Origin: Stieleria neptunia
GTDB lineage: Bacteria; Planctomycetota; Planctomycetia; Pirellulales; Pirellulaceae
Direction: 5' to 3'
DNA: 64,000 nt
Assembly (NCBI RefSeq): GCF_007754155.1
Contig: NZ_CP037423.1
Span: 1,984,001 to 2,048,000, forward strand
Shown: positions 55,207 to 56,355 of the stretch, one piece after another
Numbering within the stretch: the first letter of the stretch is position 1
Layout of the letters: the number at the start of each line of letters is the position of its first letter
Notes under the pieces: generated by a model
Databases searched by the model: none
The model's input: the letters and a program-made list of their open reading frames with translations, nothing else
What the model was told of the DNA's origin: nothing
Translations under genes and position numbers: made by a program

Positions 55207-55530
55207 CGCGAAAACCTCCGGAAAGCAGACGAGACACACGCAGACCAATTCGAACCGTCTGGGGATTCCCTACGGCCCCCGACTGGCATCGGTTCAGTTA
55301 CTCTCGATACCAGCCGCGAGGGTTGGACCAGCCGCACGCAGGAAAAAGATTCGCTCGGACGCTTCGGTCCCGACACCGATGCAGATTAGCGGCTTCAACG
55401 CAGTTTCGCCACGATTTGGTCCGGGATTTCGAGAAGAGTGCAGCGAAGGAATTTCGCTACGATGCTGAGGTCGATGCAACCGCCAGCGCGAAGAAATCGC
55501 GTTTTCTCTGTTCGGTGCGATCGCACTCAT
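55207..55530. other. Intergenic gap without recognisable gene
   Basis: 324 bases between the DUF4153-like start and the DUF559 stop. Both genes read leftward, so this must hold the former's promoter. I found no repeat or convincing coding frame here; it ends at the left hairpin copy of the DUF559 element. Confidence 0.5.
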
Positions 55531-55989
55531 TCATTCTGGCTCCCTTCTCCCCCGCGGCGAGAGCGAGTGGTGCTCGCTCTCGTCGTGGGGGAGAAGGGCT
55601 GGGGATGAGGGGGCACGTCCTTCCATCCGCTCGTCAATCGCCTGCTCGATCCGGCGCCGCACGGCAACAGCATTCCTCAAGACCTCGTAACCGAGAACCC
55701 GCACGACGTGATATCCTCCCTCGGCCAAATATCGGTCGCGACGCTGATCATGCTGACGGCCTTCATTGGTCTGATGAGGTTCACCATCAACCTCAACAAT
55801 CAACTTCAAGGCCACACAACAGAAGTCGACTGTATACGGAGAAATTGCGTATTCGCGCCGAAACTTCTGATTTCGACACCGGCGATTGCGCAACATTTGC
55901 CAAACATCCTGAGCAAACTCGTTTGCGCGGACCCGTTGATCGCGGGCGAAGGAAATCGCCTTTGGATCCCTTCGAGCTCTTCTGTTCAT
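55531..55989 (-). CDS. DUF559 (Vsr-like PD-(D/E)XK) nuclease-domain protein
   Basis: 152 residues from ATG 55989 (a TTG at 56007 is also open). The DUF559 core is complete: ANEFAQDVWQMLRNRRCRNQ, KFRREYAISPYTVDFCC (Asp55), LKLIVEVDGEPHQ (Glu67 and Asp69, the ExD of the nuclease-like site), RDRYLAEGGYHVVRVLGYEV and a terminal helix. DUF559 proteins share the very-short-patch-repair endonuclease fold; their activity is largely untested. Residues 125-152 (from about RAPSSPALLPHDESEHH onward) are translated from the left hairpin repeat, so the repeat extends the protein. The gene is framed by inverted copies of that repeat. Confidence 0.92.
   Translation of the reverse strand: MNRRARRDPKAISFARDQRVRANEFAQDVWQMLRNRRCRNQKFRREYAISPYTVDFCCVALKLIVEVDGEPHQTNEGRQHDQRRDRYLAEGGYHVVRVLGYEVLRNAVAVRRRIEQAIDERMEGRAPSSPALLPHDESEHHSLSPRGRREPE
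55537..55616 (-). repeat. DUF559-element hairpin repeat, left copy (family F)
   Basis: An 80-bp repeat with outer end TGGCTCCCTTCTCCCCC and inner end GGGGATGAGGGGGCA. It contains an inner stem CGGCGAGAGCGAG/CTCGCTCTCGTCG with one mismatch. In reverse complement it matches 56022-56102 at both ends. It overlaps the 3' end of the DUF559 reading frame. Confidence 0.9.
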
Positions 55990-56021
55990 GCTGCCCCTAC
56001 GATTCAAGGGTGACGCCTGCT

Positions 56022-56102
56022 TGCCCCCTCATCCCCAACCCTTCTCCCCCTTCGATGAAAGCGAGCACGACTCGCTTTCATCGAAGGGGGAGAAGGGAGC
56101 CA
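56022..56102 (+). repeat. DUF559-element hairpin repeat, right copy (family F)
   Basis: This 81-bp copy has inner end TGCCCCCTCATCCCC and outer end GGGGGAGAAGGGAGCCA. Its stem CTTCGATGAAAGCGAG/CTCGCTTTCATCGAAG is perfect but has a different sequence from the left copy's stem. The remaining 56103-56355 stretch, before the PhoD stop, shows no convincing gene. Confidence 0.9.
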
Positions 56103-56355
56103 GTATAGAGGTAGGCCGGCCACCGAGTGGAAATCGCAAATTCGCACTCTGTCCAATGCCGGACGCAGATTGAAACGCCCGCTTTCACCGCATCGGTTGG
56201 ACCATTCGACGCATTTTTCGCAGTTTTCTTCTTGCAGTCGGTGGCGGACACCGTCGCGCGGTTTGACGTGCAATTTGTACGCGCCGGCGGCTGTCGCCGG
56301 CGGGACGATGGGATGCTGGTCGGCGAGCTGGCCGAATCGCAGCCTGCCTGCGATC

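Follow-up and report, generated by a model that had tools for sequence, protein, structure and literature searches.

The window, a 64,000-nt stretch of the Stieleria neptunia genome, contains a compact unit comprising a DUF559 gene and two hairpin repeats (Table 1); no other gene lies in the 566 bp. The original prediction placed this gene between two inverted repeats of about 80 bp, and this layout was confirmed, with repeats of 79 and 81 bp. The outer ends are complementary, as had been proposed (55533-55553 against 56086-56106, 95% over 21 nt), as are the inner ends (55587-55615 against 56022-56050, 97% over 29 nt), and alignment confirmed that the two copies have their ends in common and differ in the middle of their stems. 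The left repeat (55537-55615) has the outer end TGGCTCC from 55537, 26-nt arms (55542-55567 and 55573-55598; 92% complementary) and a tail (55599-55615). The right repeat (56022-56102) has a tail (56022-56038), 27-nt arms (56039-56065 and 56071-56097; 100% complementary) and its outer end at 56102. Both follow one plan, in which a conserved outer part, TGGCTCCCTTCTCCCCC, is followed by a variable stem, the complement GGGGGAGAAGGG and a gene-side tail, (C/T)TGGGGATGAGGGGGCA. The G-rich tail of each repeat, on the gene side, is a mirror of the purine arm of its hairpin.

Table 1 Features of the DUF559 unit and its surroundings (window coordinates).
Feature	Position	Strand	Remarks
Whole unit, outer end to outer end	55537..56102		566 bp; one of seven full-length genomic copies
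Left hairpin (gene 3′ side)	55537..55598	+	Conserved outer TGGCTCCC, variable stem
Left tail CTGGGGATGAGGGGGCA	55599..55615	+	Mirrors purine arm GGGGGAGAAGGG, 12/12 with A to T allowed
DUF559 (PF04480) Vsr-like PD-(D/E)XK nuclease gene	55531..55989	-	About 27 last codons inside the left repeat
Right tail TTGGGGATGAGGGGGCA (minus reading)	56022..56038	-	Purine-arm mirror, 12/12 with A to T allowed
Right hairpin (gene 5′ side)	56039..56102	-	Perfect 27-nt stem; outer end GGAGCCA on plus
Direct repeat TCGCACTC, left copy	55521..55528	+	Flanks the unit
Direct repeat TCGCACTC, right copy	56142..56149	+	Possible target-site duplication or deletion scar
Left arm beyond hairpin, common to copies	55469..55536	+	Parts found elsewhere without the unit
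Right arm beyond hairpin, common to copies	56103..56206	+	Ends CGGTTGGACCA

The window ORF belongs to DUF559 (PF04480; E 1.2e-24, 86.7 bits against a curated cut-off of 20.6), and a Pfam scan of the gene returned DUF559 and MTES_1575 only. The Y1 HUH transposase (PF01797) is absent inside the unit, in agreement with the proposal that a nuclease stands in place of the usual tyrosine transposase. Translation likely starts at the ATG at 55989, not at the TTG of the mechanical ORF (55531-56007, minus strand). The nearest named protein matches are from Stieleria sedimenti and Rhodopirellula sp. SM50. In a profile of 51 relatives, R25, W36, F49, R50, D61, F62, G75, D87, R90 and R103 are invariant, and E72 and D74 are kept at 90% or more. 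Sequence relatives in the PDB below E 1e-3 are 3hrl (endonuclease-like, 1.7e-34), 3r3p (a mobile intron protein, 5e-5) and PvuRts1 I; we take 3r3p to be the Vsr-like homing endonuclease I-Bth0305I. The AlphaFold model of the window protein has a pLDDT of 82.5, and PADLOC gave no match for this protein and two weak matches for one relative. Within the same family, YcjD was earlier related to Vsr (PMC1189080), and the Caulobacter DUF559 protein VsrA, linked to a solitary methyltransferase, was proposed to be a Vsr-like repair nuclease (PMC12907096).

Copies, selection and occurrence in relatives

The unit is multicopy and dispersed in the S. neptunia genome, a single contig of 10,975,817 bases. 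With the left repeat and its flank as the query, we found at least 46 matches, a lower bound since 40 of the 56 first-look candidates were scored, and the repeat is abundant elsewhere in both the genome and the genus, as the original prediction requires. The left outer arm occurs at nine genome sites, seven of which hold the whole pair at a spacing of 565–566 bp, which argues that the unit is not a product of chance. These full units lie at different sites (A, the window copy, and B, C, D, F, G and H; each 565 or 566 bp outer-to-outer). Copies A, B and C are near-identical at their three sites, and copy D has a one-base gap in its gene relative to the others. Copy E is split, its left and right ends lying about 9 kb apart, and copy I is a solo hairpin consisting of the left half of a left hairpin and the right half of a right hairpin. 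Comparison of the copies revealed shared sequence outside the hairpins of roughly 70 nt on the left and 105 nt on the right, beyond which the flanks of the full copies differ. Gene-less repeats, solo and paired, also occur in the genome. A second family comprises L039, L041, L042 and L043, with L038 standing apart. It keeps the end plan but has different stems, and the DUF559 remnants inside it match the N-terminal part only; these four copies are nested within TTAGCGG..CCGCTAA palindromes, in both orientations.

The family-1 units are hosted by a dispersed repeat with the imperfect palindromes CGGTTGGACCAACCG, CGGTCGATGCAACCG and CGGTGTCGGACACCG (window 55321-55500 and the flanks of copies A–I). 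A 94% copy of this host repeat is present at G005:C120, and its arms are joined without the unit at G002:C205 and C125.

The original prediction read the C terminus of the protein from the left repeat. This holds for the window copy, in which about 27 residues are so encoded, and is not a fixed property of the copies: in A, B and C the reading frame continues into the repeat, whereas in D, F, G and H a TAG immediately precedes it. Database homologues include proteins of 122–123 and of 150–153 residues, and several of the longer ones end in residues resembling translated repeat. Together with the read-through in A, B and C, these longer homologues indicate that a repeat-coded C terminus recurs but is not fixed.

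The intragenomic DUF559 paralogues are under purifying selection. Over a 110-codon core, the six pairs among A, F, G and H gave dN/dS of 0.13–0.19 at dS of 0.09–0.70, as would be expected were spread to depend on the protein; all 15 pairs obtained with two units of related genomes added gave 0.09–0.21. Selection for hairpin folding, a further part of the original prediction, is supported by two lines of evidence. Two-sided changes affect three stem pairs in four right hairpins and two pairs in six left hairpins, with 97 and 100% of the cells paired, compared with 48–67% when the partner was slid. This comparison draws on only 4 and 6 distinct sequences, and its shuffle control is modest: among 500 shuffles, 14 to 114 reached the values measured for the right hairpin and 36 to 378 those for the left. 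In addition, all 27 of the 27 distinct inner stems fold above the shuffle mean, the observed stem being reached by at most 6 of 200 shuffles.

The gene and the repeat co-occur across the order. We counted the pattern GGAGAN{0,1}GGGNNNGGGN{0,2}TGAGGG in 60 genomes, S. neptunia included, of which 32 have a protein match at E 1e-3; the reversed-pattern control gave one match each in three genomes. At least three repeat copies were found in 20 of the 26 genomes that have a DUF559 match at or below E 1e-10 versus 3 of the 34 others (Fisher test, phylogeny ignored, 7e-8); with phylogeny likewise ignored, the other five cut-off combinations gave 1e-6 to 9e-4, and the genomes outside the genus (11/15 versus 3/31) gave 2.6e-5. 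The association is incomplete in both directions: three genomes (G040, G055 and G056) carry 9–41 repeats without a close DUF559 gene, and among the 26 DUF559 genomes four have no pattern match (G007, G019, G049 and G059) and six have fewer than three.

Flanks of this type were predicted for the DUF559 genes of relatives, and many of these genes, not all, have them. At a cut-off of 30 bits, we detected inverted repeats between the flanks at 20 of 33 DUF559 loci and none at the other 13, in a count run without a control; one of the 20, L047, is a long inserted block. A wider sample was the best 80 of 584 confirmed candidates from one scan of GTDB species genomes and hence not random. Here we took the best inverted repeat between the 400 bp upstream and the 400 bp downstream of each gene, which scored at least 30 bits at 43 of 80 DUF559 loci and below this at the remaining 37. 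In the controls, the same score was reached by 7 of 206 neighbouring ORFs, by 19 of 240 mispaired flanks and by none of 136 pseudo-genes displaced by 1.7 kb. The passing loci include Planctomycetota, Chloroflexota, Alpha-, Beta- and Gammaproteobacteria, Desulfobulbaceae, Nitrospirales, Binataceae and others; several of the 80 are orthologous or congeneric and thus do not represent independent events. Protein and repeat similarities are correlated across 50 loci (Mantel r 0.324, 0/5000), and the correlation is lost for distant proteins (r 0.019), so this link may reflect shared descent; coevolution of protein and repeat was set aside, since the significance is carried by closer relatives only.

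Relation to BoxC/TM repeats and other known systems

In E. coli, the BoxC/PIT/TM repeats have been recognised since the 1990s; their motif has been reported from more than 260 genomes, triplex formation by the E. coli motif has been published in vitro, and triplex motifs have been linked to instability (PMC4666352). In the class II purine-motif intrastrand triplex, a 5′ pyrimidine arm is followed by a complementary purine arm and an antiparallel (mirror) 3′ third strand, in which A or T may lie over A-T (PMC4666352). Both window repeats fit this definition (12/12), and they are, by their sequence, BoxC/TM-type triplex motifs. In E. coli, 23 K-12 TM copies are given in Table 1 of PMC4666352, five pairs being inverted, and a table row for BoxC gives, as read, 56 bp and 32 known copies (PMC2267715). 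The window repeats share with the E. coli motif the pyrimidine arm, the purine arm and the mirror third strand, as well as the inverted pairing, and TM copy 9 lies beside the DUF559 gene ycjD; they differ in that their arms are longer, with 12 triads and an additional variable stem, and in that BoxC/TM repeats have been described without a mobility gene.

The mirror arrangement extends to other DUF559 loci. We compared tails with purine arms at 162 flanks, the two of the window included and symmetric arms left out. Among the 86 flanks with a match, 40 were mirror, 7 direct and 39 ties (1e-6 on the 47 deciding). Across the best 80 loci, the inward mirror motif is present on any side at 57 and on both sides at 27, compared with 5 and 0 of 136 shifted controls; the outward motif is found at 39 and 12 of the 80, respectively. 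A strict four-G-run motif occurs inward at 70 and outward at 34 of 160 flanks (shuffled, 3/160; shifted, 1/276). The inward orientation is therefore a bias, not a rule. An initial reading of the four G-runs as a G-quadruplex was replaced by the mirror/triplex reading after the tail test; a quadruplex may form. We also rejected the rule, reported for E. coli pairs, that one end always has loop type A and the opposite end type B: the 13 loci typed on both sides, some with unsure strand calls, gave BA 4, BB 4, AA 2, oo 2 and Ao 1.

The layout was originally likened to REP/RAYT (TnpA-REP) units, and both sides of this likeness were borne out, as the gene lies between inverted hairpins and gene-less pairs and solos are scattered in the genome. 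The systems differ in their enzyme, which in the window is PD-(D/E)XK and Vsr-like rather than Y1 HUH, and in the window tail, which mirrors the arm; moreover, the unpaired GTAG at the hairpin end of REPs (PMC3733652) is absent from both window repeats. The S. neptunia genome has eight Y1 transposase (RAYT-like) genes (L172–L179), and neither the window repeat nor the inward mirror motif was found at any of these eight loci. Several of them have REP-type flanks of their own, including GTAG-type hairpins and long inverted arrays.

Of the features of a classical IS transposon, the window unit has the inverted ends; the TCGCACTC direct repeat around it is at most a possible target-site duplication, and no duplication is seen at an E. 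coli pair site. The window protein is related to the mobile intron endonuclease 3r3p by profile search (E 5e-5), but no intron or intein was seen at the window unit, which has inverted triplex-type ends instead. YcjD and VsrA, of the same Pfam family, have been studied as repair or DNA-damaging nucleases, and the accessible parts of those reports describe no association with repeats. In the open-licence literature we found no link between DUF559 and BoxC/TM, and no account of DUF559 with inverted repeats or of REP with very short patch repair, although an unseen report is possible; DUF559 together with hairpin returned methyltransferase work only there, with no DUF559 title on repeats. The original finding is real and goes beyond what was first described; the analysis establishes the layout, the copy number, the selection and the multi-phylum association.

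Signs of mobility

In Bradyrhizobium, the unit is present at three loci (L123/L152/L161, L133/L156 and L145), between which homology is confined to about 400–600 bp. Between the same two genes that flank the L133/L156 unit, the L145 genome has a unit-free spacer of 215 bp. A 165-bp gene-less inverted hairpin pair adjoins that unit (L156 3424-3588, L133 3426-3590); its spacer is inverted between L133 and L156, which belong to two species, and tens of copies of the pair are listed in the Bradyrhizobium genome G061.

The E. coli DUF559 gene, ycjD (K-12 1351407-1351760), has TM copy 9 (1351239-1351204; PMC4666352 Table 1) between it and fabI (end at 1351039), about 170 bp from ycjD. The TM repeat is on one side only, and its arm mismatch led to rejection by our mirror script. 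The last ycjD codons run into CCCTCTCCCTGA, which we interpret as a decayed repeat. The 51-nt E. coli repeat, used as the query of a distant search, matched 5376 of 5426 E. coli genomes at a median of 19 places per genome, and a ycjD query was covered to at least 80% in 3330 of the 5426. We discarded ycjD as an empty-site test: the three ycjD-less strains opened have efflux genes after sapF (also PMC12817139), so the difference is not a clean insertion. The hrpB-mrcB region, including its TM pair, has at least 80% coverage in 3521 of the 5426 genomes. We read three variants: War keeps one fused hairpin, and the pair is missing from E. coli 536 and EcN_Sk, where the joint shows a few differing bases and no duplication. 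At alx-sstT, two strains read keep one hairpin. Other TM pairs were unsuitable as clean empty sites (NCTC10444 has other sequence at alx-sstT, and S8 a different neighbour at ygfF-gcvP). The fused-solo state is also found in the genome of the window (copy I) and in G002 (L269). None of these sites bears a duplication.

The empty sites envisaged by the original prediction did not appear in clean form for copies A, B and C in 14 genomes of the genus, in which the flanks were located but the spacers were rearranged or on separate contigs. A related repeat that lacks the unit (L271, G002:C125) has TCGCACTC once, and because the copies share arms with TCGCACTC, the direct repeats cannot be read as independent target duplications. 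No consistent target-site duplication was found across the sites examined.

A candidate mobile system and its alternatives

We consider that the window unit is probably a REP/RAYT-like self-spreading unit, in which a Vsr-fold DUF559 (YcjD family) nuclease is combined with BoxC/TM ends and relics. DUF559 is a good candidate enzyme for the BoxC repeats, because gene and repeat occur together in several phyla. On balance, we lean slightly towards the wider proposal that DUF559/YcjD proteins are the missing enzymes of the BoxC/TM repeats and form a separate class of mobile element, present in many phyla, which would move by means of a lone Vsr-fold nuclease acting on hairpin or triplex ends, in parallel with REP/RAYT but independently of it. 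In single-stranded DNA, for example at a fork, each end would fold into a hairpin, with the tail returning on the purine arm as a third strand; this end structure is proposed because of the mirror symmetry and the two-sided stem changes. The nuclease, whose action on the repeat we infer from the sequence, would recognise the structure of the end, not a fixed sequence in the stem, and would nick at or beside this structure. The freed or copied strand may then be joined elsewhere by host repair, often in intergenic or other repeat DNA. Deletion, or putative movement of the ends in trans, would leave lone ends, gene-less inverted pairs and fused solos, which would constitute the scattered BoxC/TM repeats; all three states were observed in Stieleria-type genomes and E. 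coli.

It is unlikely that the unit is a homing-type element, in which DUF559 would cut intact targets and recombination would copy the unit, the hairpins being boundaries or the cut site. The sequence relation to 3r3p suggests such a role, as do the location of the copies within another repeat, members of which are also found free of the unit, and that of the family-2 copies inside TTAGCGG palindromes. However, the flanks of the full copies differ beyond the shared arms, gene-less repeats are more numerous than units and, to our knowledge, inverted, structure-conserved ends are no hallmark of homing, which further counts against it.

We regard as quite improbable that DUF559 is a passenger caught between repeats mobilised by another agent, such as a Y1/RAYT enzyme. 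Gene-less solos and pairs, the three genomes with many repeats and no close DUF559, and the presence of Y1 transposase genes in the genome are what a passenger would predict, but the repeat is at none of the eight Y1 loci, several of which have their own REP-type repeats; one gene family would have had to be captured repeatedly across different phyla; and the paralogue dN/dS is 0.13–0.19. The 2015 survey, in its available text, also looked for and reported no transposase or integrase remnants, mobility genes or mobile elements near the E. coli copies (PMC4666352). Very unlikely, in our judgement, is a unit that is not mobile at all, with DUF559 a repair or mismatch nuclease and the triplex repeats unstable spots where such genes persist. 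This would accord with the repair role proposed for VsrA (PMC12907096) and with the instability of triplex motifs (PMC4666352), but the near identity of A, B and C, which lie at three sites, the constant spacing, the dispersed remnants and the confinement of homology between Bradyrhizobium loci to the unit all argue against it.

As the same kind of repeat frames a nuclease gene in several phyla and adjoins ycjD in K-12, the question of the origin of BoxC/TM repeats becomes accessible at the bench in a laboratory strain. If the self-spreading reading is correct, a REP-like mobile system can also be driven by a nuclease of the Vsr type.

Some DUF559 loci have more elaborate arrangements. At L112, L126 and L117, each side has two or more oppositely oriented hairpins, and long inverted blocks result. 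Among the DUF559 loci of a plasmid collection, one of six passes 30 bits; this locus, on the Deinococcus plasmid NZ_CP026518 (L307), is a hairpin-flanked DUF559 gene that lies within an hpa catabolic gene cluster, on the opposite strand. At L284 (G034:C5:328500-340500), five DUF559 matches with repeats form a direct array, mostly about 1.5 kb apart, with repeat blocks 95–98% alike.
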